A stretch of DNA of 64,000 nt from Aphrocallistes beatrix (Eukaryota > Porifera > Hexactinellida > Sceptrulophora > Aphrocallistidae). The DNA lies in the NCBI GenBank assembly GCA_963281255.1, contig OY725498.1, forward strand, positions 4,464,001-4,528,000. Reading direction: 5' to 3'. Position numbers and translations under genes: made by a program. Positions 6,235 to 56,906 of the stretch are shown piece after piece. The notes under the pieces are model-generated. The model made no database searches. It was not told the DNA's origin and saw only the letters and a program-made list of their open reading frames with translations. Numbering within the stretch: position 1 is the stretch's first letter; each line of letters opens with the position of its first letter.

Positions 6235-7095
6235 GTGGGTTGGGTCAAGCACCAAAACACTAAATCAAATAATGGAAAATTATATAATTTATATAGATTT
6301 GAATACATACATTGAATCCTTCCAATTGTATAAAGGAGTGTGATTAAATAAAAATATGAATGGCCATAAAACAGACTTTATTGTCATGTGAACCATTTTA
6401 TCACTATTCGAAAATCTATTCAGTCACACTTAGATAGAATTTTTTTAAACCCAGATCGTTTTCGAGGTAAGTGTCCTGGTTAACACTGAGTTTCATTTCC
6501 CAAACTATTTTGACACAAATATTTATTTAAATGTTTAACGGGATTTTTTTCAAATACAAGTACGTAATGACAATTCGTTATATGTAAATTAACCAAAACT
6601 TTGGGTAACTAAAGTGTGTATTATATAATTGAGGTAAAAAAAATTGCAACAAAAAGGGTTTTATACAAAACTAGAATCGTAACTAACAAAGTCAAGTCTG
6701 TATACCTAACCAAGATTAGTTTCTAATACTATTGTTCTTCATTTCTGGCTTCAAATCAGCTTCTATTGACACTGGTTCATATTTAGACATTGAATATCCA
6801 GCTAAGGTGCGGATTAGTGGTCACAATTATCGACAAAATCCAGTTCAATTTATGGATTGTTTGTAAGGCCTACTGACTGTAACAACTCAATCTACATGTT
6901 AAACTAGACTAGACATTTATACATATAAACACCATTGATAATGTTAAAATGAAGTAGACATAAGAGGTCGAAATAGGATTTATTCTTCACTCAAAATATA
7001 TATTTCCCATTGCTTCAATGTGGTGGTCACATGTTTAATCAATTAGGCATCCATCTACAGTATAGCTAGCTAGCACTTGCTAACCTATAATCATC
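6235..7095. other. Head-to-head spacer between FEM1 and PMS1
   Basis: 860 bp, AT-rich, no ORF of note on either strand. It separates two divergently transcribed genes, so it should contain both promoters. No TATA box or binding site can be assigned with confidence. Confidence 0.5.
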
Positions 7096-32415: not shown

Positions 32416-33165
32416 TTAATGGTTCCTCCTCTGATTCGTCTCGAAGAACATGAAATCGATCAAAAAGCAAGCACCGATCATCACAGCTTTCAGGCGTACA
32501 TCCAAATCCATCGGGAATTTAATCCCAAAGTTGTCAGCATCAGTGAAATACTCACGAGCTAGGCCTGTCCACTGTTTTGAAACTTTGCCTACATTCTGTC
32601 CGTCTAGTGTGTCCACTTCGAAATCAAGGTCATAGCACCATCTACAACACAGCTTCAGTGCGTTCCCAGTGATCTTGAGGATTTCTTGCTCTTGGGCATC
32701 CAGGAGGGTGAACTTAGGGTCCCAAAGATAGCAGTCCTGACGCACGTATCCCACTATCTGGCCTGGGGGCGATTGCACCTCCATCAGCTGTAGACAGCAG
32801 AAGCAGCACCAAGCAGAACATCTCAGAGGACGCACGATGTGAATAACTTCGTTCTGTGAGTTGTCTAGGATTGACATCTCGAATGGTCGACTCGGCCCGC
32901 AATACTGTCGAGCACAGCAGTTACTGTTCTCAGCTGCGAAGTAGATCTGTTGTCCCAGGGTGTTTTTCAGGACGTAACGGTTCGCGGTTTCCCAACCAGT
33001 CATCAATTCCCACAGCTCAACCTGCTGGTGAACTAGGATCTGATCGATCTGAGTGAGGTACTCTAGTCCTGGAGGACAGTTGGCCACCGCTTGAGGGGGC
33101 GGCATCCACTCGGTTTTCTGTAGTTGGGGCGCGCCAGGGGGTGCTGGGGGTGGATATCCTGCCAT
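32416..33165 (-). CDS. Phospholipid scramblase (PLSCR family)
   Basis: Intronless ORF of 249 residues from ATG at 33165. The family plan is clear: a short Pro-rich N-terminus (MAGYPPPAPPGAP), the scramblase core starting CPPGLEYLTQIDQILVHQ, a Cys-rich palmitoylation segment (RCSAWCCFCCLQ), and an acidic Ca2+-binding-like stretch (DADNFGIKFPMDLDVRLKA). It ends in a single C-terminal TM helix (AVMIGACFLIDFMFFE). Scramblases move lipids between leaflets in a Ca2+-dependent way, and some members act in the nucleus. It sits convergent to the RPTP, after the MITE cluster. Which vertebrate paralogue it matches cannot be decided from this sequence alone. Confidence 0.93.
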   Translation of the reverse strand: MAGYPPPAPPGAPQLQKTEWMPPPQAVANCPPGLEYLTQIDQILVHQQVELWELMTGWETANRYVLKNTLGQQIYFAAENSNCCARQYCGPSRPFEMSILDNSQNEVIHIVRPLRCSAWCCFCCLQLMEVQSPPGQIVGYVRQDCYLWDPKFTLLDAQEQEILKITGNALKLCCRWCYDLDFEVDTLDGQNVGKVSKQWTGLAREYFTDADNFGIKFPMDLDVRLKAVMIGACFLIDFMFFETNQRRNH

Positions 33166-34165
33166 CTCTACTTTTTTTTAAATTAAGAAATACGTAATGT
33201 ATTTATCACAGATATAAAACTGTATATAAAGGTTTCATCATGTAGAAATGAAGCAAAAAATGTGAGCATAGTATAGCGAATCCTTGAGCATGTGGGTTAT
33301 GCTCTAGAACTTATGATCATAAAGGATAAAAGTATAATTATACGATTCAACACGAGGTTGAAATGAGAGCAAGGCATATAAAGGACTATATTTAAATAAT
33401 GGCTGATTCTACGTATTTACAGAACTATTTATATGTAATAGATTAGATCTACCTACTAGACTAACTAGGAGTCAATTTCACACTATTACAATCACTACTT
33501 GGGAGTCTATTTAATTAATCACAAGCGCGCTACGCGCACTTGCGTAGCGCGACTAGCGAACACTTCGCAGAGTCGCCTGATGCGAAATATTGGTTACTCT
33601 CACTATCCATTTCAAATTTGCTTACTTTATGAATTTATTGTAAATAAAAAATACAAACAACAATATAAGATCGTAAATACGATATTCGGAATCTACACCC
33701 ATAATAGTTCAATGGTTGAAAGGTAGTTTCTACTACATTTTAAGATTTGTTTACTAATGTATCTATTTTTTTAAAAAGTAAACAAATATTTACCATATAT
33801 AGATTCGAAAATATGATATTCGAAATCTAGCCCGCTACTGCCAAAGGAGTATAGTCGAGCACAGTTATTGCATATTGCGATGAACTCGACTACTTACTTG
33901 GCAACGCGAGACTTTGTGGAATGTCTGGATAGTAACTGCTCGGGAAAGGTGGAGCAAAATAAGTAGGCTTCTTTTTGATACTCGTATTTTGCTCTTCTAT
34001 GTAGTTTTATACGAAAAAAGTCGCATTTATAATATAACAGAATCGAATCAAAATCAATAATTTATTACTAATAAAATAGGCAAATATATGAGTATCTAAA
34101 ATATTCGAAATAAATAAATACGAGAAAACCTAAAAATTAAGAGAGTGCTCCTAGTGATGAGAAGA
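33166..34165. other. Spacer between scramblase and giant receptor gene
   Basis: 1 kb without a supported gene. It contains a short GC-rich palindrome at 33526-33551 (10-bp arms cgcgctacgc / gcgtagcgcg) in otherwise AT-rich DNA. A diverged direct repeat of about 34 bp occurs at roughly 33668 and 33800 (both contain gatattcg). Confidence 0.5.
34061..34066 (-). promoter_or_regulatory. Candidate poly(A) signal of the giant receptor gene
   Basis: AATAAA on the minus strand, 99 bp past the stop codon at 34166. Confidence 0.5.
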
Positions 34166-37100
34166 TCAATATCTATTCTTATATATCAAAATGTCAGTGT
34201 CGTCATCTTCGCTTTGAGGCAATGCATGAGATGAGTAGGCAGTAGAAGCTCGTACCCATTCATCCCCCTCTGTGTATACGGGGTTGATCAGGCTAGCCCG
34301 AGGGATTCGTGTTTCCATCGTGTTTGGTTCGGTTTCGTGTTCGACTCGAACTTTACCGCTACGAGATTTCTGAAACCGAAACTTCTCACTGCTTGCAATA
34401 TAGTATACTAAAAGGCAGTATACCCCAGTCAAGGTAGATAAAGCAATGAAAGTTATTTGATAAACAGGAAGCTCATCATCTCTGCTAAATCCATAAGTTG
34501 CTACAGCCCAGGTTGCAGTGAGTAGAAAAGGAAGTGTACTAGAAGAAATTTGCAATCTCAAAAACTGGATACATCGATTGGAAGTAGTTTCACCTAATTC
34601 AGTACGTTTGCGAAAAATACTCAGCAATACCATTATCCCCAAAAAGATCATCGCAAAGAAAATAATAATATAATTCGGGATAGTGATTGCAAGGTCAAGA
34701 TTGATATTCGTTTCGCTGCTTGGCCAACAGTATAAGCGAACACGTTGATAGGAACACGAAATTATCTTGTAAGATAAAGGAATTGGTATTGCAGGTAGGA
34801 GGTAGCCGACACCGGCGAATATGAAGTCATAAAATACTTTTTTGGTCTTTGTAACGACTAGAATGACGTTTATCATATCCAAAAGAGACCAAAGTGTGGT
34901 GCTAAATGCGAGATATTGCATCAGAATACCAGACACTGTGCAAAGCCAATTCAATTCAGTGCGATCGATTCCAACAAGGAATACCACGAATGCAATCATT
35001 AGAGTTAGAATCACATTTATACGCACGAAAGTTAACCCTTTCCGGAACTGGAATATTCGGAGTGTGAGGAGAATCAGAGCTGTGAAACAGCATAGAGCAG
35101 AGAAAGCGAGAAAACATTTTATGAGAAGAGTGAGTGTTAATGTTGTGTTGGGTATAGGAGGTTGAGTTGGAGAGATGAGTAAAGGTATGTACCCATCAGA
35201 TGAGTCACATTCGAATTGAACCACAGGATCATTACGTGAAGAGATAATGGTGCAAGTAGGGGCATAAATTTGTTGGAATTGTTGAAATAACTCAATCGAT
35301 TCCAATCGAGTGTTGACAAATGTTTTACCATCCTCGTGGTAAGTGGGAGAGTTTGGAAGAGAAATCACAAACAGATTCGAAGGTGAGAATTCATTGATAC
35401 TAGCAAACTGACACACACCACGAGTAGCCGCCACAGAAATATAGTCTCCTTGAAACTCGTATTTCCGTGACGGAGTCTGTACGCGGAGATTGATGCACTG
35501 GTTCCTCCTCACACTCCCAGTGAGGGCTGCGTTCAGGAGGAGAGCTAGCGATGTGATCCGCAACAGCAAAAGAGAGGTTCGACATTGCTGGGGAGTACGA
35601 CCGCCTGGCAACGAGACTTGGGACGAGTCTACGAATGGAAGAGAGATGCTGTGGTTGGTTAGTTCGGGGAATTGGAGATTCCTTACACCATATTCCGCAG
35701 TGTAGTTATCCCATGTTAGCAGTTTGAAGGAGAATGACGTACCACTGAAGGCGTAATACTCCATTCCCTGATCGTAAAGATAGATAGAAACACGGTTTGC
35801 TATCTTGTGTATCGTGTCCACAATGCTGAGGAGGTTGAAGGTCGAGTTATCAGTCTCTTCCCAGCTCTCTTCGGAATTTGACAGGAGAGAATCTGCAACA
35901 TCTAAGAGTTTGTCGAAAGAAGAAATACCAAGGGACAATGTAGGTGTAGGCCAGTCCTCAATTACTTGTTCTACTTCTTGGATAAAAATGGCAGCTACTT
36001 CTAGATCTATTCCCTGCAGTCGAGAATTCTGAGCTAACAGCCACACATCCTGAATGATCGATTCTAACTCACTCTGAGAAGTAGATTTGGTAATGCTCAA
36101 CCTTCGTAATTGATTCAGCGCCATATCCAACTCTGGAGAAACACACTCCGTTACTCTACTGTATCCCCATTGTGGTCTGTCTGCTATGCACTCACAAGAT
36201 GGCAGACATGTACGAGAAATGAGACCGTATTGAGTGTTGGGACACTGGATTTGCACTGTAACACCTGGAACTGTATCAAAGAATGTTATATTCATATCAT
36301 CGGTCGTAGTTTCACAAACAAAAGTACCTACTAGCACTGGTGCACACTGTTCGAGACACTCACAGAAATAACTTCCTTGTGTGTTCACACAATCCTGGTT
36401 CAAATCGCAAATGTCTATGTCAGCACACTCATCAATATCAACACACACCTTAGGTTGGCAACTGGGCTCGAAGCAGTATGGAAGTATTGAATGTGAATTG
36501 TTTAACTCTACGGTATATCCTGAAGGACAAACACATTCGTACTTTAACAATTGGTCTACACAACGAGCAGGATACTCTCCACACAAAGGGTAGTGGACAC
36601 TACACTCGTTGATAGCACTACAATTGTACCCATCACCTTCAAAACCGTCCTTACACTCACATGTGTAGCTACCAAATGTGTCTGTACAGTTAGCGTAGGG
36701 ATCGCATGGAAAGGTTTGGCATTCGTCTAAAGTGATGCATTCGCCATTAAGTTCCAAAAGAAAACCATCTTTACATGTGCATTCATATCCTGAGTTAATT
36801 TGTTCGCACATTTGAGTGATTGGGTTACAAGCTGGAATACATAGACTCACCATAATACAGTTGACACCTTCGAAGCCAGGAGCACAAATGCAGTCATACC
36901 CACTTATATTTGCTTGACACATCCCACCATTCTCACAGGGATTAATATCACATGGTGACTCGCATTGACAACTCCCATTCACTGTCCCCCCACCACACGA
37001 AATGTTACACAATTCACAGTTCATCCCTGTGAAACCTCCTACACACTCACAACTGTAACTCCCATTCCCATCAACACAGCTACCATTATTCATACAGGAA

Positions 37101-40100
37101 CTGTTGACACAGTCGTCTATGATCAGAGAGCAATTCTTCCCAGTCGTATCTGGGACACAAGTACACGTGTAGTCCTGAATGAGATCTGTGCAAGCAAGGG
37201 AGTTTTTGGGATGGCATGGATTAGAATCGCACTCGTCTACCAAAACACAGGTTCCAGAGGTAAGCACATAATTCGGACCACACATGGTGCAACTATATGT
37301 TTGTGGGTAAGGAAGGTTCGTGCAAAATTCTCCTGTTCCGCAAGGAAGTAGCGAACAATCGTCAAATTCTTGATCACAAAATGTTCCAGTCAATCCCTGT
37401 GGACATTCACAGTGAGAACAATTTTGATCGGGGAGAGCTGAATTTTGGCATTGATTGGAGAGACTACACACACTACAATTATTCCCACTCCAATTCCCAA
37501 CACAGTTACAGCCAGTACAAGTAGAATTGTGACTACCATCGTTTTGACAAAGCCCTAGCTCACACGTATCGCAAAGCACCCCGCTCCAATTTCCGATACA
37601 GTTACACCCACAAGTAATATTGTGAATACTTCTGTTTGGACAAGGCATGGCTCCAGAAATATTCAGAAGCACAGCAACTTGAGCAGACATCGGTTGAATT
37701 CCTTTGTCAGTAGCGCTTACGACTAATGTTTGTTGACTTTTGAAACATGGTAGAATTTGTTTAAGAGTGACTGTTCCATTTGAAGATTCAATAGCAAAGA
37801 AATTGTTAGGTTGTGAAGTAATAGAGTAGAAAACTTGTGCATTTGTACCAATATCGAGATCAGAGGCAGATACGTTAAGTATGACCATGTTAATTGAGGT
37901 AGGTTGAGAAATAATAGAAGAGTAGTTCGGTTGAGAGAAGATGGGTGGATTATCATTCACGTCTCCAATATTAACAGACAAAGTTGCTGTACTGTTCGTC
38001 TGATTCTGAGAAGCTTGGTCTGAAGCTGTTATCGTCAACTCGTAAGAAGATCTTGTCTCACGATCCAATGCACTCTCCACTGAGACAACTCCAGTACTGG
38101 AATTAATAGAAAAAGGACCAGCACTGATACTGTACATTACTTCACCATTAGAACCGAAATCTCGATCTGAAGCAACAAACTGAGCTATACTCACACCAAT
38201 CCCAGTGTCTTCTGAGATAGACTGGTATTGGTTATTGTGTATGAATGTAGGAGAGTTGTCATTGATATCTTCGACAGTTACTGTTACGAAAGAATGTGCA
38301 GTGAACCTCAAACTACCACCAAGAGAATCGACAGCTGAAACGTTCAGGAGAATGGGAACTGTGTCAATTTCGCGGTCCAAGAAACCAAGTACTAGCAAAT
38401 CCCCATTCGCATTAACAATAAATCGATTATCTCCACTCACAGAATAAACAACTTCACCATCAATTCCTCTGTCATTATCTGTAGCAGAGACACGACCGAA
38501 TACAGTATTCACTGGAGATTTCTCTGCGACAGAGAAAGAGTAGCTGTTAGAAGTGAAGACAGGAGGGAACTCGTTAATTCCTAAAATCTGGATAGGACAG
38601 GATAGCACACTGGATGTAAGACTAGGAGAGCCTTTGTCTCGGGCAAATAAACGCAACTGATATGACGTGACACCTTCATAGTCGATAGCACCACTTAACG
38701 ACACAACTCCTGTCACGGAGTCAATCGAGAATGGAACCGTTGAAGTAGAGAAGAATTCGATGTCAGAGTTTGAAGAGTTGGTGAGATCTGCATCAGAAGC
38801 GGAGATAGAAAACAAACTAGAATTAATCGGACTATTCTCTGCTACAGAGACTGCACACGACGTTACAGATAGAATCGGAGCATTATCGTTAACATCCTCC
38901 ACACTTATTCGGATAGACAGCGTGTCGTCCAGACGATCACTTAACACAGGATCAGAATCCAGTGCTATTATCACGAGATCATACATGTCCTTATCCTCTC
39001 TGTCTAATCCAGAAACCAGAACAACTGATCCTGTAGCAGAGTCGATACTGAATCTACCTTCGTCGTTACCAGATAAAAAGCTATAAGAAATCACGCCTTG
39101 AGGACCAAAGTCTCCGTCGGTAGCTACCACCTGGAATAGAGTCTCACTGATAGAAATATTCTCCTTAAATGGAAGCATTGGTCCAGTCATGTTTGAGAAG
39201 TTGGGAGAGAATTCGTTCACACCAGTCACTTGCAACAGAACAGTTGCATTCGTATACTTAGGCTCAGCACTTCTATCAAACGCGGTTATTGTCAAGTTGA
39301 AAATCTGCTCAGGTGGCAAAAGAACAGCAGGTGACTCTAGATTCAGGTCTTTTCTCAATGTTATCAAACCTGTCAGCTCGTCAATAGAGAATTCGTTATT
39401 AGCAGAATTAACATGGTAGAGACTGTAACGGAGGTTTGCATTGAGATTGATGTCTCGGTCAGTTGCATTAACCTGATAAATTCCTGTTGTGGCATTTGTT
39501 GTTTCGCGAAATTTAAACATGTACACGGCTTGCTGGAACATTGGAGGATTGTCATTTTCATCTAGGATGGTAACTAATACGTTAACTGTAGAGCTACGAT
39601 ACACTGGATTAATTGCTATTGTTTCTACAACAATCATCCAAGAATAGGAATCTTCCGTTTCTCTATCAAATAGGATGGATCCAACTACAACTCCACTGTC
39701 TTCATCGAGAGTGAAAAATGAATCATCTGGACTGCCACTCTTCACGAATACAAATTCACCGCCCAAACCAAAGTCAGGATCAGTGGCATTCACGTTGAAT
39801 AGGACCAGAGAGATTGGTTGATTCTCTGATATCTCTACGCTAATATCTCCATGCAGGAAGGAAGGAGAGAACTCATCCACTTGTAAGATGAGGATAGTCA
39901 GGTTCGTCTCATTCATTTGTACAGGGGTGCCTTTATCAGTTACTGTTATGAGAAGAACAATCTCTTGAATGGGAGGAACGAAATCAAGATCAAGAGAAGA
40001 GTCCAATCGAATGCTGCCATTCCCTTCATTTATCACAAAGTAGGTTATATTGCTAGCTGGTACTAATTGACTAATAGCGAAACTGAGCTCTCCATTCAAA

Positions 40101-41545
40101 CCAGAATCAACATCCCATGCCGTAACATTGTACACGATTGTGCCTAACTCTTCTGTTTCTTCCAACTGGAAGCTGTCATTGGGATCTGCAAACTGAGGTG
40201 CATTATCGTTAATGTCTGTTAGGTTGATGAGCAAATGGAGAGTAGTGATAAATGGACCAGGTAGACCAGCAGGAGGCGTAGCTGTAGCGAAATCAAATGC
40301 TTCCACTACCAGGTCGTAGTGTGTAGCTTGTTCGTGATCAAGCCGTCCTAAACAATAATAAAGTATACGACTTGTAGAATAGCGCCTTCCAAAATAATGA
40401 ATTAAACAGAGTATACGTAAGTAGTGAGGTTCGTCTATAGCAATTGCTCTACTAATCATCAATTCTAAATTATTCTCAGGTCACAGGCAAATAATGCTAA
40501 TTTTGTTACTCTCTTCGCAAGCAAATTCAGATCAAAAAGTGAATCCATTTTAGGACACTCCACTATAAACTTATTTCAAATCCTTAATTACAATTAGAAA
40601 TTCAATCAATTTGAGTACGTACTCAAATACTCAAACCTTTAAGCTTAGTAATAATCATATTATAACTCACCTGTAACACTGATAATGCCATCAGTTGGTC
40701 CAATAGAAAACACATCAGCGAACGAGGCTAATCTGTAATTCACAACACCTTCATCACCAGAATCTGCATCAGTAGCATTTACAGTCGTCACTGAGAGAGA
40801 AGTGTTCTCCTCAGCAAATTCAAAACTGTATTCAGGCAAAGGAAGGAAGATGGGAGGAAACTCATTTACAGGAATAATGGTGATTTCATACGTCACATTC
40901 GAACTCAGTGGAGGAACTCCCTTGTCTGTAGCTACCAGCAAATATTCATAATAAGAACCACTGGGAAGTGTCATATTGTCAAAATCGAGTCGAGTTTCAT
41001 TCTTTATCTCCAAATGAGCATTCACAGAATCAATTGAAAATATTCCATAATCCACTCCAATAGCAACAAGTGAATATTCGATTTCACTGTTAACACCTTC
41101 ATCTTTATCAGTAGCCTTTCTAGTAAAGCACTTTTCCCCATTTTTGAGATCTTCTCGACAATCAAACCTATAAATAGAATTTTGGAAAATTGGATGATTA
41201 TCATTGATATCCAGAATATTCACTGTATAGTCCAGTTCTGTGTAGCGGACCTTCTCAGGATAAGCGTTATCAGAAGCTAGAATGGTCAATACGTAGAGAG
41301 GATCTTCAGAATTGTCAGTGAACATCTCTCTATCCAGAGGAGATATGAGGGTCAGAATCCCGTTATTTGGATCAATGCTGAAAATATAATCTACACCCAT
41401 TGTACTGATTGAGTACGAGACTTCTCCTTGAGAACCTTCATCCAGATCCACAGCATAGAATGTAGTGATCGGAATGTTAGTGGTATTCTCCTCGAATAGT
41501 GAGATGGAGGATGTATTAGGTAGATGGAACTCTGGCATGTAGTCG
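34166..41545 (-). other. Cadherin-EGF-GAIN-7TM part of the giant receptor
   Basis: Cadherin repeats run from about 41545 to 37640. Eleven are inferred from repeat-end motifs DINDNHPIF, PVNEFPPIF, DINDNAPQF, VDEFSPSF, DENDNPPMF, GVNEFSPNF, DVNDNAPIL, GINEFPPVF, DINDNSPTF and DVNDNPPIF plus a terminal repeat. EGF-like and laminin-EGF-like modules span about 37630-36310 (CSCECVGGFTGMNC-type; DIDECADIDICDLNQDC). A Cys/Trp segment near 36200 resembles a hormone-receptor domain. The GAIN-like region (36130-35180) lacks a recognisable HL-[ST] cleavage site. Seven hydrophobic helices lie in 35140-34390, and the tail to 34166 is polar and acidic (SEDDDTDILIY). Confidence 0.87.
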
Positions 41546-44500
41546 TTAACGTAGTGGACTTCAAAAGACTGGGATATCACAGAATGATCAAAGTTGGACT
41601 CAAATAGCAGTGTATAACTTTCAGCATATTCGGACAAGGAAAAGTTACTAAAAGTCGCGAATGAGTTGGATAATCCTGCTTGATTATAACCGAGGATTTT
41701 GGGAATTCTAGGGGAATTATCCATTTCTATGTAAACGGATATTTCCCAACTACTATTGAGATAGGGTGCTATCATCCCAGTGCCGTAGTCATAGACTCCC
41801 ACGCGTGGAGACACACCACACACGACTGACTGATTGCAATCTGAAGGGAGGGAATCAACACTCAGATAGTAAACCCTCTCTTTCACATAAAAAACATTAC
41901 TCATTATCGTCAAACCATCGTAGCTGGAATCACCTTCTGTAGAGATGTTCAAAACGAGATAGAAATAAACATCCCTTGCGAAAACTCGAAGATCGTCAAA
42001 CACAGCACTACCCAACGAACCCAACTCATACTCTGTAGTGCCGTTAAGTGGGAATGGTTCATCGGTCATTGTGAACAAGTACACTCTCACTGTCCAAGTT
42101 CTATTTCTCCAACCGATATTACGGACAACTTCTCCATTCGCTTCGTCTCTGATACTCAACATGGGACTGTCTCCACATACCACTGTTTCATTACAGTCGT
42201 TAGGCTGTGTGTCTAGTGTCAGGTAAAAGAGTCTCTCTCGAATCAACACAAAACTGAAAACACTTCGAAGCGTATAGTTGGAAGCTGGGACTGTGTACAC
42301 ATTATATTCGATGGAATAGTTGCCTTCAGAGTGAATAGAAAAGTCTGGGAACTCAACCAATCCAGATGTGAAGTTTTGAGTTGTTTCTCCAATCAATGTA
42401 CCGTTACCAGTGTGACGTGTCAAATTCGTTTCAGTTACCCAGTCCCAACCCTTCCAATCATGGTTCGTGACTCGCTGTCCAATACCGACATCAACAAGTT
42501 CAATGAGAGGAGCAGGATTCAAAGGAATTGTCTCGTTACTGGTGTCAGCATGTGTCAAGATATTAAGCACAATGACCCGCTCCTTCACCTCAAACAGCCA
42601 AGATGCTACAACGAGATTAGTATGAGAAAACGTCACTCTAAACTCGAGGATATAGAATCCAGAATGCGAGATGGCGAGATCAGAGAAGGTAGCCCTTCCA
42701 GCTACAATTGGAACGGTCGTTCTTCCCAAGAAGTACGCGTCAGGGTGTCCGTATCCTGCACGGAACGAGACAGTCAATCCCCATGTTGTGTTAGTTGTGT
42801 AGTGTCGAAGGTCGGTGACAATATCATTATTCTCATCAACGAGATATAACTGAGGCTGCTGACCAAATGGAACAGTTTCGTTTGCATCGAACGGATTTTG
42901 GGCTATAAGTACGTTTACAGGTACTTTGTAAAGAGAAATATTCAGAGCAGAACCATTCGATGTAACAAAGAGAGTCAAATTTCTGAGAAATGTACTATTC
43001 AGAGCACTGTCATTCAATCCTGTAAAGTTAGCAGCTTCTGGGGATGGAAGCGGGTCAGCGATTACTAGGGTATGAATATCCGCATTAATAAATTGGCCCA
43101 ATAACCCAGTTTGTGTTAAATCTACAACTGCTTGGGAAATATTCAATAATTCGAGGTAACTGAAAGGAAAGTCATTTGTGCTGTTAGACAAGGTGTCATT
43201 AGTCTGGTTGGTCATATTGGTCTGATTGAATAAATTAGTCATATTGGTTTGGTTGAATATATTAGTCTGGTTGGTCACATTGGTCTGGTTGGTCACATTG
43301 GTCTGATTGGAGGGAGGAGGAGGAGGAACATATGTGTAAGTGTCAGTAAGAGGTGTGGATGTCATGTTCTGAGGTGGATCCCCGATTTCAATCCGGATTG
43401 TCACGTTATTGAAAACGTGATCCACTTGTCTTCTAAAAATACGAGGAATACCCACTATATTCGTTACACGAATCCTCGAAATTGGAATATCAAGGAGGAA
43501 AGCAATATTCGAAACAATTTTCTCCTCAAAAAATGCATCTACTGTGATTGAAGCCATATCGAATCTCAGTTGAATCACCATCGTGGTCTCAAGTTTGATC
43601 TTAGCATCTCCTTTCACAACAAAGTACATTGTCAGAGTAGATCGGTCGAAAAAGTTGGCACCTGGGTTAAGATCGACAGTGGGAATGTGGTCATCTCGAA
43701 CACTAGGATCTCGAGTGTCGGAATACTTGAGGTTATCCTCAGCTAACATTGCATTTGTTGGGACGACGAAGTTATCTCCATTATACACGTCGAGTCGTTG
43801 TGGATTTGGGTAGAATAAACCGACAACAATAGCTCGACTCACGTCAGCATTTAACATGAAAAATCGCAAAACTTGCGGATTCGTGCCTGTGAATGCAATC
43901 GAATAATTCAGTCCAACACGCACGATCGAGTAGAACGTGGAGATACGCTCTTGACAAGTGTACCCCAGACACCATCCATGGTCCATTGGACCGTTTATCA
44001 AGTCGATGAAACTTCCAGCAGCGAGACCCACTGGAGAAATGCGCCTCGTCTCAGTATCAGCATCCAAGCTCTCAATTATCATCATCTCGTGGTTGCTGCC
44101 GGGACAGAAATAAGATTGCCAGTCAGATTTATACTCACAATTCGCGTCACGATAAATGCCCTTATTTGGATACACATCTGAAATGTTCACTCTACTACCA
44201 TCAGTGTTAGTCTGCAATGCGAGAGGGACACGATAATCTCCCAATCCACGCTGTGGGTCTCCATCCCATTCAAACTCTGACTGCGCCACCAACTCGCCAC
44301 TCATTCCAAAGAAAGAATCATCCAACATTTTGATTAACACCTTTTTAGGACCATCACAATCCATGTCCACACAGTCCGGAGGATCCACCCAACTCAGCAA
44401 AGGTCGAAATACAAAGTATGTAGCACCTTCATCAACATTCGATCTGAAACTGTCGCGAATCTCAACAGGGTGCATTGCATCACCAGATTCAGAATGGGAT

Positions 44501-47500
44501 TGGATTGCCTTGTCACCACAAGAATTGAGAAAGTTAGCAAAGGTCACACCATTCATTCGTGTTACACCACTAATGGATGAGTAACTGAGAAGTCTATCGT
44601 ACGGTTTGTTAGGCACATTTCCACTTTCAGACATGAAGGTGGAAAGAGTGAAACCAACATTTCCACCATTCTTCGCAGAATGAGACCTCCAGAAAATTGT
44701 CCGAGACTCATGTCTCGGTTTAGACAACAAAACACTACAATTAACAACATCAGAATTACCCACAAACAAACTGTCACTCACACTCACATACTTGTCAGAA
44801 CAAATATGATCCAGAGATCCCGGTTCGTACACGATAGCATGGAGACCAACTCTGTTATCAACCAGAACCAAATCTTCAAACTGCATTCGTTGTCTGGTGT
44901 AAGTGAACACACCCCAGTCCCAGTTCACATAACAAGTGAACTTGGAAACCTTGCTGCAACGAGGATGGCCGTCATTATACAGCATGTTAATTCCATGGAG
45001 ATTGGAATGTGCAATGTTCCCAAACCATTCTCTAGCAGGGTCAACTTCATCACAATGTTCTCCATCGATGTGGAAACCAATAAAGTCTGACCCAGCTGCC
45101 GAGTTATCTCGAAGTTTCAAGTTGGTCGCACCTGACAATTCAAATGTCACAACATGAGGGAGCAGACCGACGACAATCGTAGTCAGGAAGTCTTCTGGGA
45201 ACTTAGTCTGAACTGCTAAATTGTGAGTCAGGTTTACAGCATCAGCAGCAATGATCACTGAATCCCCGATCGTCCCGTACACCACGTTATCACTGATGTC
45301 AACAGCATGCGAGTTGAACACACCGATGGCAGGACTCTTCGAGTCATAGAACACGCAAGATCGAACAAATGAAGAGTTCCTAAGAGGAGTTTCTAAATTC
45401 AGAAATGCCACAGCATAGCGAGGATCGTACGAATCAGTGAACCCATACTGTCCCCCGTGGTAGAACTCAACACCTTCAAGGAACGTCACTCCAGCAAGGG
45501 TTTTATTGCCGAAATAAATCGTTGATGATATCACTCTTGCACCAAAGTCTCGAGAGGATACGGATCCAGATGGTTCATTCACACCTTCAATGATAATATT
45601 TCGAGTCAACAGAGCTACTTCCGGTCTGAGAACATACTCGATCCCATTCTGTGTCACACCTCTCACCACACGGTGTGTATGATTAAAAGGTGCTACAACA
45701 TAACAAGTCACACGGTCTACCTCGATAAATGAAATGGTGGCTACTTCCGTTTCGTAGTGGTCATACGTGGATGATGTGATCAAAATCTCACTTCTCACAC
45801 TCCAGTCGACTGGTTCAGAGAGGAGAAGTGTCGTGTGGTTTCGCAGGATGGTGGCATTCGCATAGGTCCAAGATACTAAAGGCACCTTCCCCCTCAACTG
45901 AAGTAGACCAAAATTGGCGATCACCTTTGCTCCAATCACAGGAGAACTTGGATACACTAACTCAGGAGTGCCATGATCACCCAGCAGTCGAATGTGAATG
46001 TTATGCTGGAAAGATCCATTCAATCCAGCAATCAGACCAGCATTCTCTCCCAGAATAACGATGTAAGTTGCATTCAGCACATAATCAATGTAATCTTCAA
46101 ACTCGAGCACTCCTTGAATGGTCAGATTTCTGATTGTCGGTAGCTCCGTGTCTATAACCATCCACCAACCAGGCGGAATGAACACATCCTCCACATCAAC
46201 TGGAGGTTCTGATATGCCGTACTCTTCATCCACCCAGTCACTGGGTATGCTCCACTGCTTATAAACGGTGGGTCTACCCATTGGAGGAGGTGGTGGAACA
46301 GGGATAACACATCGAGGGAAGAAACACTGATAGACTGATAGTTTTGTTTCCAAGTTTAAAGTGTCATTGAAAGTATTCCCACTTACAATATAGTACAAAT
46401 CAAGTGAAGACTCATTAAAATGCCAATCACCATGTGACGCGTTGGGACGACGTGGGATATCAATAAAGCTGGTAGTATCGATATCTTCTAGGATGCGAAG
46501 GTAATCGGGTCGCTGGGTGAAAGGATGTCGAATCCACAAATCATCTTCTGGTGCAATGTCAAAGAACCCAGCATTGTAACTGATGTTGGTGATGTGTGTT
46601 AGATTCTGGAATATCAGAGTAGTGGTCTCACCAACTAACACCAGCGACATCCAACCATCAGGATGAGTGAGTCGCTTATTTCTGAAAGGTACAACAGAAC
46701 TTCCATAAATATTTGAAAGAATGGCGTTTACGAATAGGAGTGATTCCGGTTTCGGGTTATTCCATGCCATCCTTCGAAAGCTAACATTCCAACAATAACT
46801 TCCAGCATTCGCACCAACAGACAACTCAGGTACATCCTGCATGCAATTATCAGGAGGCAGGAGTCCCATCGTAGGGACAATGGAGAAAGAGCCATTCTTT
46901 CCCGTGATGGACCCATCCATGTCAGAATGAACTGTTTCATGTTCCCATAGGAAAGAGACACGGTTTGTAGTGTTGATGAAATGAACACCAGACCATCTCA
47001 CCTCCCATCCACCTTGTCGAGATTTGCAATGCGAACAACCAGCAATAGCACTGCAAGATGATTTGTCAAAGTTGGCAAAAGTGATATTACGAAATGTGGA
47101 ACCTCTGTGATGACCAGTTCGAACACCCGCACTCCCACACAACTCCTCTTCCAGTCCGGAAATTCGAGACGATACGAAGCTATCGTACACCAGACAGCCA
47201 TCTTCACTCTCAGTATGCCACACACTGGGAATCGTCACTTCCAATCCTGCCAACTCGTTGCTAATCGCGTTGAAATTACGCCAGTGGACAGCTCCGGTCT
47301 CCACGGTTTCAGCTCCGCGCATGTTATGCCAAGTCAGGAAATCGGAAAACAGCGCCACTGTAGGAATCGTCGACTCACAACTACCATTCTTTTTGGGGGA
47401 ATAATTCGGAAAGATCCATAGTCCATAGCGACCGAATGAGTGTGCAGAGTTGTTAGTGAACTCTCGCATCACCACATGGCGGGGACACACGGTGGACGTG

Positions 47501-50500
47501 AAACTGGGTCCTTCAGGGTGAGCAGACAGTCGAACCCAATAACCGAATGTGCTCCCACCAGCAGCTGCGTTGTGTGACACCACGTTGTCAGGGTTCGTTA
47601 TCCAGAAGGCAGCAGGAGTCACGTCCACATTCAACAGACTGCTGGAAGAACGGACAAACACAGCCAAGTTGTAACGGATAACATTCCCCGTCTCAATCCC
47701 GTCTTCCAGAAAGAACGCATGTCCCTTCACATTGTAAGCAACATTGTGCTCCACCACCAGGCCATGCACTGCATGGATTGTCACAGCACGATTGAACGTG
47801 TCGTGGATAGCACAGCCGCGCACATACGAGTGAGACACGTTACCGTTGAGGTGGTAGTGGATCGGGTAGCGACCCAGTCGGAATGCCTGACCGGCATGTC
47901 TCACCTCCACATACTCCAGACGTGCCTGGGCTGCGTGGGTCGGGGAGTGGATCATGATGTGTGCACCGAACTCATCACTCCCGATCTCCTCACCGAATCG
48001 ACCTTGGAAGCAAGACTGAGTCGCGTGCTGGTCGTGGTCAAACGCGAGAGAGCAAGGAGCGATCTCCTCTGTCCATTCGTCATTCACGGACCCTTCAACT
48101 ACGATGTTACGTGTCAGTAACCCAACCTCGGCTTTCAAATGGAGATCTTCTTCTCCATTCGACATCACAAAACTCAAATGTTCGTACTCGAGAGCGGGAT
48201 TGATTCCCAATTCAGTCAAACCATTCCCAACACTCACACTTGTGATCAAAACACGTTCATTTCCAACAGGACCGAACCCAGACGTAGCAATCACAATCTC
48301 GTCTCCAACCGACCAGTTCACCTCGTGCTCTATTGTGATTTCTGTGTCGTTAATATTCGCGGTTCTCGACAGTCTGCTCCAAGTGATGGGAATCGGTTTA
48401 CCGTGTAGCTCCAGGGTCCCATCTCTCACAGCCAACACCTTCGTGCCGTAGACAGGAAGTTCTGGCTTTCGAGCATGACCGTGGATCCTGATCACAGCCC
48501 TGTGCTGGAAATGTTCCTCTTCTGTCCCCACTTGTAGAACACCCCCGTCAGTCACGAGGATATACTCACTGTTCAGTTCGATGTCCTTCTCATCGAACAC
48601 GAGCTTCCCTTGTATCAGAAGGAAGGACAGTGTGGGCGTGGAGATATCCAACAGGATGGTCTGGTTTGGACTGATCACCACGAAATCACCTGCAACAGGC
48701 AGACTCGTTCCTCCCCACGTGTAGAGGGAAGACCATACATCGATGAATTCAAATGTCCCGCTACCTTCTGCATAGCCCTTCGAATCAACATGCACATCAA
48801 CAGACACTTCAAAGCTCTGCAGACTACTCGGAGAGTAGCACTCGATCTGAGAATCAATTACAGAACTCACATTACAGGTTAGTTCACCCAATCTCACTGT
48901 GATGTCTTCTTTCACAGTTCCGAATCCAACTCCTGTGATAGTCACAAGCACTCCACCCCCTGTCCCTCCTCGATGAGGGTCGACGCTTGTCACATTTGAG
49001 AAGAGAGAAGTTTGATAATGAAACATATCAGTCAGCGCAACAGTTTGAGAATTCACACTAACTTGGATGTTGCAGGTTCTATCAGTAGGGTGACCTGGTG
49101 CACGACATTTCAATGAGTGAGAAGAAGATTCAGATACATAAATTACGCAATTGTTATCACAAACTGTCACTGTCGCGTTTAGTGGATCGAACCCATGCCC
49201 ACTCAATTCAATATCTCGCCCCATCATACCACTGTTGTAAGTCACGTTATCTATTTGAAGTTCAAACGTGTAAGATTGAGATGTTACAGAACAGCCGTAA
49301 ACGCCATTCCTTACTAACGGAGTGTAAGATCCTGATACGAGATTCGATGGAAGATTACACATAATGGACGAACTATCAACACTCACAACAGAGCATTCAA
49401 ATCCACCAAATACGACTGTTACATTGTCAGAATTCGATCCAAAGTTGGATCCAGATAGTTCAAGTTGGCCACCTGTTCCACTGGAAGGTGATATACTAGC
49501 GATGGTGGGAGTAGAATTACTAGAAAATAGAAACGCGGGACTATCTGCAATCATCAAACCATTAACTGTAACGGAGACTAGCTTGGAACCTACAGATGGG
49601 TGAGTGGAACATTTCACTGTGTTGTATGAAACATCGACGATATCACAAGGATCTGTCCCGATAATCACGGTAGTCGTGTCAGGAGAGAAACCGTGGCCAT
49701 TGATTGTTAAGAGTGTACAACCTCCTGTACTACCTGACAACGGAGACAGCTGGGTAATGCTACCTCCAATTGATACAGTATTAGAGGTGTCAGGTATGGT
49801 GGCACATCCTAAGTTCAGGACAATCACTGACACGGGGTAATCTCCGAGAACGAGGGAACTCACGTTACAACTAATCCTGTTCATTGAAACTTGAAAATAA
49901 GTACACACATGCTCTCCCACTTCTACTGTAATATCTGAAGCATCACTCGTAGGAATACCATCCACAGTAATCATTGTCTCGTGCGGACCTTCCACTGAAG
50001 AGATCTGAGTAACTTGAGGCGTGTAAGTGACAGAATATTCAAAGTGGAAACTAGAAGACTCTAAAATGGAGCAGTACGAAATGTTCAGTGGAAATACACT
50101 GCCAATGTTCTTACTCGTGCGACAACTAATTTCATGATATGTCTGTGATAAGATCACACACTCACTACCCAAATTCAGCTGTGTCACTTGGTTCAGTCCA
50201 TAGCCATTTACGGTGAGGATGGTGCAGCCTTCCAGTGATCCTGTCTGTGGAGACAGCCCTGTCACACTTGGTTTAAGATAGTATTCACTTTTCGCAGACA
50301 ATAAAGCATAGCCGTTATTCCCAAATAACACACTCACCGGTAAGCTGCGACATGTGGGGACCTCATAGTTCTCGTTGAGTCTGCAAAAAGCTGTTGTGTC
50401 GTTTTGCTGAAACACCTCGCACGGAAACTCGGAATCCAGTAGCAGTTCTATGGAATGGTTCATGAAATGGGATCCTGACACAGTGATCACATCTCCCCAA

Positions 50501-53500
50501 TCACCTTCACTGGGTGTGATTGTTGAAATATGTCCGCTCTGACAATCCCAGAATACGAACTGAAGACCATTCACACCTGTGACTGGAGGAAGTGGTGTCT
50601 CACAGGTTGGATCGATGGGTATAGCTGTCACACTCGCAGGGAGTGAAGGAACAGAGGAAGGAGAGAAGTTGTGAGCAGTGAAAGAAATGTCAGAAGTGAA
50701 AGAAGATAGTTCACTCACGTTAATCACTCCCCTCATACTCGGTACTACACTGTTCTGGTAGTACCGAATACCAGGTTGATAGAAACAGTGGGAGAAATTA
50801 CCACTCGAGCTCACCTCACTTGAGAAACCATCCACGACATCACTTCCAAAAGCGTCCGTCTCACTCACTCCATACTCGATTAAACCAGCCCCCACCCAGC
50901 TCCATGTCACCCTGTCTCCAGGTTGGACCGTCACACTACTCGGGTTCCAAGCATAGCCATAACCGAACTCACTGCTGTAGCCTGAGTTGTCGATGGAATG
51001 CTGCTTCCAAGTGGAGCCTATCCTGCACTCCAGACGAGTGCTGTTAAGGAATAGAACACTGCAAACAGTGCCCACCGGGGAAGATGGGAAAGTGATGCTG
51101 ATGTCAGAACAGAAACCTTGTCCGAGGAATGTCAGAATGGATCCTCCCAAGCGAGAGCCGACTAAGGGGGAAACACTGCTCACAGAGAACTCGTAGTTAA
51201 TCGGGAATTCACTGCTTCCATGTTCCACGTGTGTCAAGGTGAGAATGGCTGTACCAGGTGGGTTAGGAGGGACAGTACACACAATGCGAGTTCCAGAGTC
51301 CTCAATACTCACAGCGACACAGTTTTCGTCTGCAACATGGATAACAAGTTTCGATACATCATCGTAGAAGTTACTTCCATATATGGTAATCAATCCACCA
51401 CAGGCACCGAATGTATCAGGCTGGACACTAGATATGTTGGGAGATGTTGTTGTTACCTCATAGGTCACCTGTAAACTGGAATTCGTCACGTTTCGAATGG
51501 ATATTTCGATGGGATATGTTCCAATAGGATTAGCAGGAGATTCACACTGTATATGAGTATTATTGGCACTCAGTAATACACATTCTTTAGTGTTTATCAC
51601 AACCGAAATATCTTCTGAACGATCCCCAAAGCTTCCTCCTGTGATGAGAAGATGAGTTCCTCCACTTCTACTCAAAGTGATGGGGTTTGCACTGTACACC
51701 GTCATTAAATAGGAAAATGAAGAATTAGTTGAGAATCCATATTCTAGAATGTGAACTCTCACTGAGAGTACTCCACATGCATGGAGAGGGACGACACAAG
51801 TTATCTCACTCACACTCCATACCACTTCTGTGCAGTTAACACCTCCAACCAGTACGTACACACCAGCGGATTGTGTACCGAATCCTGTGCCTGTCACAGT
51901 CAGCACACTCCCCTCCTTCCCTGACTCAGGGGAGGTGTCTGTGATGGTTGGAGTGGCACTAGAATCGTACTCGAAAGCACAGCTGCCATTGTCACAAGCC
52001 GCAGGGACATGGTTCACGAGGACTGACACTTGAGCTGAGCTGTGAGAGCTACGCAGCATGTCTGGAGGGAGAAATGGTAAGCAGAGACCTCCCTCCCTCA
52101 ATGTTGACACTTCAATCGATACGTCACCAAATACTTTCACATTCGTGTCATCCACCACCATCTCATCCTTGTCCCCTCCCACTTGCACCCACTCCACCGT
52201 CCACGTGTACCCCCTGCAGTCCCCACTCCGTCCCACAGACACTTCTCCCTCTTCAAACGTCTCTTCGATAACACTTCCCAACTCTTCACGCGTAGCCTGC
52301 ACGTCGATTGCTCGAGTCAATGCGGCTCCTTTCTGAAGTGTGAAGTTCCCCTGAATGGGTGGAGAAGCATGCTGGACACGCGTAATGTTGAATTCAGTGA
52401 CAGGAGAATGGAACTCGTCGTACGCTACTGCTATCAGAGGGAAGCCGTGGCCACACTCAAACGTTGTCAATCGAATGTCAAAACACAGACTAGAGTTGAG
52501 GCTAGAAGGACTAAGCTCGTCAATAACTGTCACATCTACGAATATGCCGTTAGGACGAGTAGGGGGGATGGGGGATCGGTATAAGGAGATTGGATATTGT
52601 GCAAAGGCGACCTCATCAACAAATAACTCAGCAGAATACTTGGATATCGTGATGGAAGTAATAGAGTAGCCTGAAGCAGAAGATATTTCGACAAATGTAT
52701 CATTCAGCTCAACTAGCTTACTGAATACATTTTCACACTGATAAGACCATGAAGAGACTTGAGGAGTAAAACTCTCTTGAGATATAGTCACACTACTATA
52801 TAGAGTGTCCTGACTCTCATTCTGCCACTTCACACCTAGAGATATACTTGGACCAACAGACCCGATGTAGGCGAAACATAGATATTGGTAATATCTGGCA
52901 TCAAACTCTTCAGCTTCCACGAACGATCCACCATTCTCTTTCAAATGCGTCGAGGTAGAGTGGAATATGCGATAAGGGTTTCTAACTGATTTCTTTCCAC
53001 AATAAGGTTCGACAGTTCCATTCAGCGTTCCTGAGACAGATCCTGTCCCAGTCTCGTAGTCCTGCAGCAAGAAGTTGATTCCTTTCGGGTACTCACACTT
53101 TCTGAAGAATAACGCCTCGATTGACTGACGGATCTGAGTCGTGGTGGCTGTGAATGGAATCGGGACACTTTTAGTGGCGCCAAAAACGAGAGTGAAATTC
53201 ACATCAGCCTCCAACCCTTCTGAAATCACTGAAGTGAGAAGACTCACTTTCGCTGTCTCATTTGTCGCACAATCCAATTCTGACACCTCAAAACCAATCA
53301 CTTCCCTCACTCCGACCTCTTTAAACGTGAACTCCCACAGCAAATGAGTCCCGTTATCGCGAACACTAACATTCACACCTCCTGACTCAACCAACGCGCT
53401 ATTCAACAGGTTCACTTCCTCTTCCACGCACTCAGAGCTACAGTTGAGGAGAAGAGAGGAGACGTTTCCTCTGTACAGCACGTCCACTCGTGGGGTGTGA

Positions 53501-55518
53501 CACTCGGTGGAGTTCATCCACTCAGACGTAGCGTTACACACGTCTGTGTTGTTGGCTGTGCTGTTACAGGATGCGTTCACAAGCTGTGAGAACGCACAAC
53601 ACTGTTCGCGGAATTTAACAGGGATCGCTACCACTTGAATAGAGTGGTTGCCTCTGTTCCTTTCCAACACCTCCACTCGCTGCCACTCATCAAACGGGTT
53701 GTTCGTAGTCCTCACTCTCTGTTTCTCATTCTTGGCCGAGCTTAGTCGAGCGTTGACAAACTCACTCTCAAACAATCGAATACTGACCACGGGGAGGGAA
53801 TTCTCAGCCAGTGCATACAGGTAGTACAGTTCTCCCTTTACGAGAGAACAAACGCCACTACAAGATGAAGCAACGGCATTCGTGGCAGGATAGCCTGTCG
53901 CACTCATGTACACTTCGCCAGATGATGATGTGAACGTGTAGCGACCTGTTTGAGGTGCAACGAAGAATCCAGACAACTTCACCACATAATTCTCAGCACT
54001 TATAGGCGGGAGATCGGACACAGTGTCTACATAGCTCGTCTCACTCATTGCCAAGTCGAGAGTGTCGATATCCGAGAGAGAACTCACACCTTGATCCCGC
54101 CACACGTGCACACTCCACCCCCTCTGACCTGGATACAGACTGGTGGTGTCACCCTGCTTGGGACTCCTGCAAACAATCTCACCTAGACTAGCTACAACTA
54201 TCTCACACTCTCTCTCACCTACAAATACCTGAACGCTGTCCACGTTGTCATGGAAGTAGTCTCCATACACTGTCATCAGAGTATTCCCTTCCCTGCTTCC
54301 CATGAGAGGGGAAACGCGCCTAATCACAGAGTACTGTTGGACCAGGAATGCTCTCAGCTGTGCGGACACGAGGAGAGCCTCTCTACTCACCACACTCCTG
54401 CCTTTGGGACCGGAGAAGAGCCAGCTGGCGTTGAAGGAGCCGATGTCAGTGGAGCTGGGCTTACACACGGCATAGCCGGTGTCGTCTTCCTCACTCACGG
54501 CTAAGCCGAAGAGCGTCTCGTTCTGAGAGTCGCTGTCGTACAGGTGGCACACGGAGGGACCCAAATACACGCGCTCTATCTGCTCCTGTCCAATTTGATC
54601 CTCATCCGTCTCCCCATACTTGTCTGTGTAAATGCGACCGCTCAAGTTGAACAGAGCTCCTGGTCGTGTGTAGCGAGGACTCGCGTCAGAGATGAGCGGC
54701 GTCTGGTCTGACCGGTAGGTGAATGAACCGGTAGAATCGACCGAGATGCCGTCTGATATTATGGAGACTGAGTATCTATAGCTTCCCGAAGCTATAAATA
54801 GGAAGGAATTCTATAAATATGGCTAGGTTGTCACATACCCGATAGTTTTGAAACTAGCTGGACATTTTGAAAACAAACTCCAATACCGAAAATCCTGAAT
54901 TCGCTTCATCTAACAGGAGTAACTAGTAGTTGTATATTATTCGTTGGCCACTGAAACACGTAAGGACTAGTGACGCATATAACTGTAGAGAGGTCAATCG
55001 TTTGAGATTTGACCCACTAAGGGGTATTATATGATATCTCAGAGTCACTCACAGGCAATGAATTTTGTCATGATTTCGCAAAGAATTTTACGGCCTCATC
55101 CCCGAAATGTATGTCAACTTATAAGAATATGACAAAATTTGGCTAAAATACAAATAACATTATTTTAAAAATCAGTTAAAAATCGGACGTAGCGGCGTAA
55201 CATAGTTGATCATGCAAATGGTGAGGGTGAGGGATAATAAAATATTCACTTACTGCGTCCAGAATTTCCTGTCACACAGACTATCTGCTCGGAGTTTGAG
55301 GAGTAGGACACTGCTTCGCAGGGCAGGGTCTCAGTCGGATTGTTGGTTGTTAGTCGCACTATGTTACCATTGGTTTCATATGAGTCTCCACTGAAGCCAC
55401 TCCCAGATATTGTCACCCTGGTCCCTCCTCCTAGACTCCCCACCGAGGGAGAAATGTCTCCATTTGAAGTGGAAAATAAGAGAAATAGCAAAGTTATTAC
55501 TTTCAGAATCATTCGCAT
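34166..55518 (-). CDS. Giant fibrocystin-L/cadherin/EGF adhesion-GPCR-like receptor (6,855 aa)
   Basis: Three exons: 55518-55254 (signal peptide plus first IPT), 54791-40671 (14,121 bp, one open frame) and 40347-34166. Both junctions are phase 1, and the total of 20,568 nt closes on the stop. The second junction rejoins one cadherin repeat (GIISVTG | RLDHEQATHYDLVVEA). Order: signal peptide about 1-20; IPT/TIG repeats with a PA14 domain; a cupredoxin-like segment; more IPT; G8 domain and PbH1 repeats, twice; an Asn/Thr-rich linker; three or four Ig-like linker modules; 11 cadherin repeats; about ten EGF-like modules; a Cys-rich segment; a GAIN-like region; 7TM; and a cytoplasmic tail. The N-terminal two thirds match PKHD1L1 architecture, and the rest recalls Flamingo/CELSR receptors. 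This combination is unknown to me as a single protein. The 55518 start uses the first ATG before a strong hydrophobic signal (MRMILKVITLLFLLF). Confidence 0.87.
41560..55518 (-). other. Fibrocystin-L (PKHD1L1)-type part of the giant receptor
   Basis: Approximate positions on the minus strand: IPT repeats 55450-48760, with signature openings such as SPLMGSREGNTLMTVYG and SPESGKEGSVLTVTGTGFG; PA14 near 54050-53740 (FFVAPQTGRYTFTSSSGEV); cupredoxin-like near 50990-50735 (WNPSSVTVQPGDRVTWSW); G8-1 near 48720-48250 (YTWGGTSLPVAGDFVVI); PbH1 helix region 48250-46300 (HAFFLEDGIETGNVIRYN, AAFWITNPDNVVSHNAAAG). G8-2 is near 46270-45700 and the second PbH1 region near 45650-44800 (NSAAGSDFIGFHIDG). Modules 42950-41560 are repeated Ig-like linkers (VKERVYYLSVDSLPSDCNQS). 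This is the full PKHD1L1 order without its own TM helix. Confidence 0.88.
43199..43312 (-). repeat. Asn/Gln/Thr-rich linker repeat in the giant receptor
   Basis: About 114 bp of short tandem repeats reading NQTNVT / NQTNMT / FNQTNM on the minus strand. Each unit carries one or more N-x-T glycosylation sequons. It separates the second PbH1 region from the Ig-like linker modules. Confidence 0.85.
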
Positions 55519-56321: not shown

Positions 56322-56906
56322 TTAGTCCAGAGTTTTGAGCAATTTTGCTAATTCCTTTGGAGACGGCCTTTGATCAGGTGTTTCACTGCGGAGAATATAC
56401 AATAGCTTACATTCTTTGTTCACAATCATATCTCCACCCATTTGATGCGACTGGCCACCTTTAATAGCTGGTATTGTCGAGAAAAAATGAGTAATTGCTA
56501 TTTTAAGATCTTTTCCTAGTCTCTTTCTGTCCAAAATCCCAACTGGTCTTTTGTAGTAGCTCAATGCATCATACAGTTTCAGATTCTGATCAAGGAACAT
56601 TGGGAAACTTGTTTTCGTTCCTTTAATCCAGTTGAGAGCTGTTTTTCTGTCGTAAAAAGCCACAAGGACAATATCGAGCTGCTCCATAATGGCTTGCGTC
56701 CTTTCCAGCTCTTCAACATGTGCCTTTCAGAATGGTCAGAAAGGGTCCCTCAGGAATATGAAGAGCGTTTTCTTTGAACTATCTTGTGAAGCTAGTATCT
56801 GGGTTAGCGAGGTCTCTACTCCACTCTCTACGCTTTCTACCGTAAGTGAGGGTGAGAGAATGTCTCCAACATTGGCTGTGGGACCAATTGGGTCTGCCTC
56901 AGCCAT
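56322..56906 (-). CDS. SELL-like (selenoprotein L): Selenoprotein L (peroxiredoxin-like, two in-frame TGA = Sec, UxxU motif)
   Basis: One exon of 194 residues from ATG at 56906 to TAA at 56322-56324, read through two in-frame TGA codons at 56738-56736 and 56729-56727. They give FLRDPF-U57-P-F-U60-KAHVEEL. In Prx-like2/AhpC-TSA relatives this place holds the redox CPFC motif (FLR...CPFCR), so both TGA fall exactly on the redox cysteines. The rest matches the thioredoxin-fold family: VLVAFYDRKTALNWI, FPMFLDQNLKLYDAL, and GGDMIVNKECKLLYILRSETPDQRPS. Selenoprotein L, described from aquatic animals and marine bacteria, is defined by UxxU with a diselenide. A SECIS follows the stop. A pseudogene with two nonsense mutations is unlikely given the intact frame and the SECIS. 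A minus-strand ATTAAA at 56189-56184 may be the poly(A) signal. Confidence 0.93.

Follow-up and report, generated by a model that had tools for sequence, protein, structure and literature searches.

A probable fusion of a fibrocystin-L-type giant cadherin with a neighbouring EGF-seven-transmembrane receptor in the glass sponge Aphrocallistes beatrix

The stretch of DNA considered here (64,000 nucleotides, called the window below) is C12:4464001-4528000 of the glass sponge Aphrocallistes beatrix, whose genome was examined as 100.5 Mb in 28 contigs. On its minus strand lie two very long open frames, one of 4,716 codons (40663-54810) and one of 2,104 codons (34169-40480), the longest open frame in 100 first-order Markov sequences of matched length and composition being 231 codons. 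Splicing of 55518-55254, 54791-40671 and 40347-34166, with both introns in phase 1, gives a protein of 6,855 residues, with no internal stop and no frameshift across the 6,855 codons. Reading from the N-terminus, the protein has a signal-like start, IPT/TIG repeats, two G8/β-helix units, 11 cadherin repeats, EGFs, a probable HRM domain, a GAIN-like region, a seven-transmembrane (7TM) domain of the adhesion class, and a tail. From the sequence evidence set out below, we consider it probable, though well short of certain, that one functional gene encodes this seven-pass adhesion receptor, and that it was derived by the joining of two neighbouring genes after an inverted duplication.

All features of the gene are on the minus strand. 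Exon 1 (55254-55518) carries the ATG, a hydrophobic signal-like stretch, the start of the first IPT and a GTAAGT donor, the start codon and donor being present also in a closely similar sister locus on the same contig. Signal-like starts were judged throughout by eye, without a predictor; a hydropathy scan flagged the stretch in the sister copy and not in the window copy. Exon 2 (40671-54791) is a giant exon of 14.1 kb which, from Pfam and the open frame, holds the IPT/TIG repeats, the G8 and β-helix units, a fibrocystin-L-like membrane-proximal region, cadherin repeats 1 and 2, and the first half of repeat 3. The phase-1 intron at 40348-40670 splits repeat 3, and both of its splice sites are conserved in the sister although its interior is not alignable. 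Exon 3 (34166-40347) was assigned by Pfam, profile comparison and translation, and contains the second half of repeat 3, repeats 4-11, the EGFs, the probable HRM domain, the GAIN-like region, the 7TM domain, the tail and the stop. An earlier, sequence-only reading had proposed a single gene of this kind, with one 14.1-kb open exon running from IPT, G8 and β-helix modules into cadherins, and joined in phase within a cadherin repeat to a second giant exon; the uninterrupted frame, the Pfam matches and the splice sites conserved in the sister all agree with it. The related glass sponge Aphrocallistes vastus is reported to encode a protein of 49,014 residues in one exon and to have many single-exon genes (PMC10282587), and therefore the exon length is ordinary here, while the domain order is not.

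By Pfam, the giant exon carries TIG, two G8, two CEMIP-type β-helices and cadherins, and the last exon carries further cadherins together with EGFs. The first G8 domain is at 48367-48720 (127 bits) and the second at 45865-46212 (75.5 bits), and the first copy of the β-helix is at 47419-47970 (PF24606, residues 2274-2457 of P0001). The IPT, G8 and β-helix modules proposed for the front end were thus recovered, but the PA14 domain proposed with them was not, the only match being to GLEYA at E 0.006, below the cutoff. IPT/TIG repeats, two G8 domains, a β-helix and a signal-like start together define the fibrocystin-L (PKHD1L1) family. The window gene has all of these; unlike fibrocystin-L, which closes with a single helix and a short tail, it runs on into 11 cadherin repeats, EGFs and a 7TM domain. 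Fibrocystin-L is reported to be a component of the stereocilia coat (PMC13424714).

The 11 cadherin repeats (37652-41541, interrupted by the intron at 40348-40670) were identified by Pfam and counted by eye from a list of linker patterns, from which four chance pattern matches were excluded. Through linker 9, the linkers alternate between DxNDN and NEF or DEF, a pattern that might come from the multiplication of a unit of two repeats. The DxNDN linkers we take to be of the calcium type. The EGF-like repeats (36320-37651) include a block that aligns with EGF-7TM proteins of other records and is absent from the sister.

For the membrane end, six family members were compared, these being the window gene, its sister and four proteins from other records (P0125-P0128). 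The probable HRM domain (36137-36319) is matched by PF02793 in one of the six, below the cutoff (E 9e-4), and by profile comparison with the CRF receptor ectodomain (E 1e-3 to 2e-4). The GAIN-like region (35162-36136) gives a profile alignment with ADGRL3 that reaches the GPS strand; Pfam finds neither GAIN (PF16489) nor GPS (PF01825) in any of the six. The predicted structure of the HRM-GAIN-7TM part has helices, then strands, then seven helices, with a predicted local distance difference test (pLDDT) score of 41; the seven helices are seen after the helices and strands, but a GAIN domain is only partly shown. The 7TM domain (34370-35131) is assigned to the adhesion (B2) type, profile and fold searches both supporting an adhesion/secretin class. 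The profile matches in the PDB are to ADGRL, ADGRE, ADGRD, ADGRF and ADGRG receptors and to peptide-hormone receptors, with no CELSR 7TM listed there or among the fold matches, which excludes nothing. Pfam reports a 7TM domain in three of the six members, the window copy not being one of them, and the window copy keeps all 10 of the alignment columns that never vary among 13 7TM sequences, itself included. An NPxY motif lies in the cytoplasmic tail (34274-34285), where N-P is present in all six members and is followed by x-Y in four and x-F in two. The combination of a PKHD1L1-type ectodomain with cadherins, EGFs and an adhesion-type 7TM, as first read from the letters, is therefore upheld by Pfam, profile and fold comparison.

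The canonical GPS site is CNHLTxF, and the H-X-S/T motif is found in many, though not all, adhesion G-protein-coupled receptors. The motif is not present in the window gene, which has a degenerate GPS, CDSSDGY (~35177-35254, from the profile alignment with ADGRL3), as does the sister; the residues in P0125-P0128 are C-x-SLSH, SFNH, SLNH and SLNH. Latrophilin L1 is reported to have a conserved HLT cleavage site, GPS autoproteolysis to require H-X-S/T, and uncleaved CELSR1 and CELSR3 to signal (PMC13062082). Given that the window GPS is without this triad, autoproteolysis would be dispensable for signalling, as the same source reports for CELSR1 and CELSR3.

The sister locus (C12 ~4541900-4575280) is inverted with respect to the window gene, at a distance of 22 kb. 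At the protein level the two giant exons are 95% identical and the exon-3 cadherins 88%. When spliced at the same sites the sister yields 8,303 residues, and past the shared part the protein continues with further cadherins, a dockerin match (E 5e-6), a sub-threshold match to a TMEM132-type Ig domain (E 2e-4) and one helix. Its EGF-7TM is a separate downstream frame of 1,554 codons, with its own signal-like start, EGFs and 7TM, and another open frame lies between the two. The end of the sister protein is like that of the coherin or TMEM132-type cadherins (PMC6030884), although no cohesin domain match was obtained in the Pfam scan of the sister, and the window gene is without such an end. The sister gene (C12 ~4541900-4567445) is intact, and as a G8-bearing coherin-like cadherin has an unusual architecture in itself. 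To our knowledge, known coherins have no fibrocystin-L front.

Genome-wide, there are six G8 matches in three open frames. Contig C6 (~2743254-2757389) contains a fibrocystin-L-like frame of 4,712 codons which, by eye, ends in one helix and a tail; among the 151 cadherin matches listed for the genome, a lower bound, none is on C6, the gene itself being judged by eye. Its tail has an NPIY motif (by eye). Given this single-helix copy, a replacement of fibrocystin-L by the fusion gene is rejected. The suggestion that the fusion is an alternative replacing both the PKHD1L1 and the Flamingo families is likewise not sustained: at the sister locus the giant cadherin is still single-pass and the EGF-7TM gene still separate, alongside the fibrocystin-L on C6.

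The DNA alignment between the two loci leaps from sister position C12:4559490 to C12:4572158 across 60 bp of the window, so that ~12.7 kb is absent from the window copy. The putative fusion junction is therefore at 37645-37705, its left side matching the first of these positions and its right side the second, and the reading frame is kept across it, at the close of cadherin repeat 11. We suggest that a pair of genes, namely a fibrocystin-L-cadherin single-pass gene and an EGF-7TM gene, underwent an inverted duplication, and that one copy may then have lost the ~12.7 kb between the pair, giving the in-frame join at a cadherin-repeat boundary. The lost segment would have held the far cadherins, the TMEM132/dockerin-like part, the single helix and tail, the open frame between the two genes and, from the 7TM gene, its start and first EGFs. 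Some EGFs that are shared with the other records are kept in the window copy and missing in the sister, which suggests that the two copies go back to one EGF-7TM ancestor.

The two copies are 98% identical in DNA over 11.5 kb of the giant exon; their introns do not align, and the DNA comparison gave no match beyond the genes. The synonymous divergence (Ks) between the giant exons is at most 0.06 in 15 of 19 segments, 0.09-0.14 in three and 0.60 in one. For the EGF-7TM part, it is 0.8-2.9 (partly saturated) in eight of 19 segments, with a ratio of nonsynonymous to synonymous divergence (Ka/Ks) of 0.10-0.40 there, and 0 to 0.21 in the other 11. Overall, Ka/Ks is 0.36 for the giant exon, 0.45 for the exon-3 cadherins and 0.37 for the EGF-7TM part. 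To us this mosaic points to a duplication that is apparently old and has since been patched by gene conversion, the tracts left unconverted being under purifying selection. It is worth adding that exons up to 98% identical stand beside introns that cannot be aligned (window 40664-55508 against C12:4541919-4556587); that conversion is confined to exons is a guess.

Relatives in other records were taken from public protein searches, as the best 120 of 526 matches for the giant-exon end, of 408 for the EGF-7TM half and of 2,278 for exon 3. Among these, G8 and cadherin occur together in six matches to the giant-exon end, namely the sister and, at ~60% identity, five other ENA records; the five non-self relatives (with G8, TIG and cadherin) lose homology at the end point of the window exon. 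At least 90% of the EGF-7TM query is covered in six matches, which are the window gene, the sister and P0125-P0128, the last four being separate proteins of 1,537-1,543 residues with a signal-like start (by eye). P0126 is from the glass sponge Oopsacas minuta, under the record name 'SCO-spondin-like'; it is 51% identical to the window protein over 716 aligned residues of the HRM, GAIN-like, 7TM and tail regions, but differs in being a protein of 1,543 residues with its own signal-like start and no cadherin or G8 in Pfam. P0125 and the giant-exon relative P0004 are each on a 1118058-bp contig, and P0128 and the giant-exon relative P0008 each on an 839114-bp contig; for two of the four EGF-7TM proteins, therefore, both genes appear to be neighbours elsewhere too. 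For exon 3, with 2,305 candidates scored, only the genome's own two proteins exceed 35% identity among the best 120 matches.

No protein elsewhere among the listed matches combines G8, cadherin and adhesion 7TM, the searches having length limits outside which a fused protein would be missed; the fused form is thus seen in this genome only, within that range. An unrooted tree of six sequences places the 7TM parts of the window gene and its sister together, apart from P0125-P0128, with 100% support. Because the sister and four other EGF-7TM relatives are separate genes, a fusion specific to this lineage is the reading that present data favour for the window gene. An early or ancestral origin, which the sequence-only reading had offered as a possibility, is rejected on the strength of these separate genes together with the 7TM tree.

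CELSR proteins contain nine cadherin repeats. The window gene shares with Flamingo/CELSR (ADGRC) the order of cadherin repeats, EGFs, probable HRM, GAIN-like region and adhesion-class 7TM, whereas it differs in its ~4,500-residue fibrocystin-L front, its 11 cadherin repeats, the lack of any laminin-G match (PF02210 and PF00054, at E 0.01 in the Pfam scan of the gene) and the origin of its 7TM half in a separate EGF-7TM family. It is accordingly distinct from both PKHD1L1 and Flamingo, as had been proposed: the cadherins and 7TM set it apart from the one, and the fibrocystin-L front without laminin-G from the other. The ectodomain of the latrophilins (ADGRL2/L3) is presumably unrelated to that of the window gene. 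By eye, no cadherin and 7tm_2 matches pair within 49 kb other than at the window and sister loci (at least 151 cadherin and at least 134 7tm_2 matches, with 150 of 510 candidates scored for the cadherin list and the window's own 7TM absent from the 7tm_2 list). Six other giant 7tm_2 frames, examined over up to 10 kb each, have EGF or fibronectin repeats and none has a cadherin. Several of the genome's adhesion/secretin-type 7TM matches belong to giant frames that also encode EGF, fibronectin, LRR or GAIN domains, and many are on contig C4, these being partial.

Other readings of the locus were weighed. Cadherin and EGF arrays are repetitive, and 22 kb separates two inverted copies of near-identical sequence, so that the assembler could have lost the 12.7 kb from a locus that in reality has two genes, as in the sister; a public 809,977-bp contig with both copies is probably the same assembly and not independent. 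Such a collapse is nevertheless unlikely. No similarity is seen between the two sides of the junction (cadherin end and EGF start); the reading frame carries across the join, which sits at a repeat boundary; the adjacent repeat has diverged from the sister's; there is no N in the window; and the genome gave only two close copies of the fusion gene's 7TM, with 33% identity for the next match. The last open frame extends upstream into the intron, to 40480, and many genes of A. vastus have a single exon (PMC10282587), which would suit transcription as two separate messages, one a short single-exon mRNA for cadherin-EGF-7TM that starts de novo upstream of 40347 and the other a fibrocystin-L-cadherin mRNA that is cut short. 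We regard this as quite unlikely: the sister retains both splice sites of an intron that is otherwise not conserved, that intron falls inside a cadherin repeat, homology to the five other giant exons also stops where exon 2 ends, and no signal-like stretch is seen by eye at the start of the exon-3 frame.

The gene might also be a decaying pseudogene that is still open by chance. In the unconverted parts, the window branch is longer than that of the sister (0.545 against 0.216), and single segments have Ka/Ks of 0.97 (EGF-7TM) and of 1.11 and 2.15 (giant exon and exon-3 cadherins), both of which speak against strong constraint; Pfam misses the 7TM of the window copy while reporting that of three family members, and a dead copy could owe its intact look to recent gene conversion. 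Against this stand 6,855 codons without a stop or frameshift, the Ka/Ks of 0.10-0.40 held in the unconverted tracts at Ks 0.8-2.9, and the invariant 7TM columns, and we judge decay distinctly improbable. The domain order from cadherin to 7TM resembles that by which Flamingo is defined, and would fit a glass-sponge Flamingo/CELSR ortholog that had acquired a fibrocystin-L front end. As a first choice this is disfavoured by the missing laminin-G and the separate origins of the two halves, the 7TM half belonging to a family of separate EGF-7TM proteins and the cadherins belonging with a sister protein that has a dockerin and TMEM132-like tail. Flamingo was, moreover, not found in two glass sponges and is reported absent from Hexactinellida (PMC4818920). 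On these grounds together we judge an ortholog very improbable.

If the fusion gene is expressed, it illustrates a route to seven-pass cadherins in which two adjacent surface-protein genes are joined at a repeat boundary, and the unfused pair is still present 22 kb away for comparison. Since the locus is in a class reported to be without Flamingo (PMC4818920), the fusion gene raises the question of whether cadherin-7TM signalling can be reinvented. A working model can be outlined from the domain content. The IPT/G8/β-helix end and the cadherin rod may bind matrix or an opposing cell, the partners possibly including the sister protein with its closely similar giant exon, and tension or contact would pass through the EGF, HRM and GAIN-like modules to the 7TM without GPS cleavage. 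The sister would then be an anchor, and the fusion a sensor with the same adhesive face. As a tentative interpretation, a Flamingo-like contact receptor may have been re-made, in a class reported to be without Flamingo (PMC4818920) and without Wnt signalling (PMC5684314), through fusion of a giant cadherin of the fibrocystin-L type with the EGF-7TM receptor next to it; gene conversion would hold the adhesive face near-identical to that of the sister while the membrane ends diverge, one anchoring and the other reporting contact without GPS cleavage. In the fused protein, if expressed, an ectodomain of the fibrocystin-L kind would gain a readable signalling output. The combination of G8, cadherin and adhesion 7TM was not found in titles and abstract openings of the open-licence literature, outside which most subscription journals lie.

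Other genes in the window include a scramblase-family frame directly downstream of the fusion gene (32419-33177, minus strand; PF03803, E 7e-89) and a MutL-type mismatch-repair frame (7084-8298, plus strand), after which, beyond one stop, the same frame continues to 9279 as 326 codons without a Pfam match. There are also a CENP-B-type DNA-binding frame, possibly transposon-derived (524-1612, plus strand; PF04218), an ankyrin-repeat frame (4234-6264, minus strand), an AhpC/TSA-type frame (56325-56726, minus strand), a weak COMM-domain frame (59294-59953, plus strand), and a Zuotin/DNAJC2-type ribosome-associated chaperone frame with J domain, ZHD and RAC head (28143-29603, plus strand).

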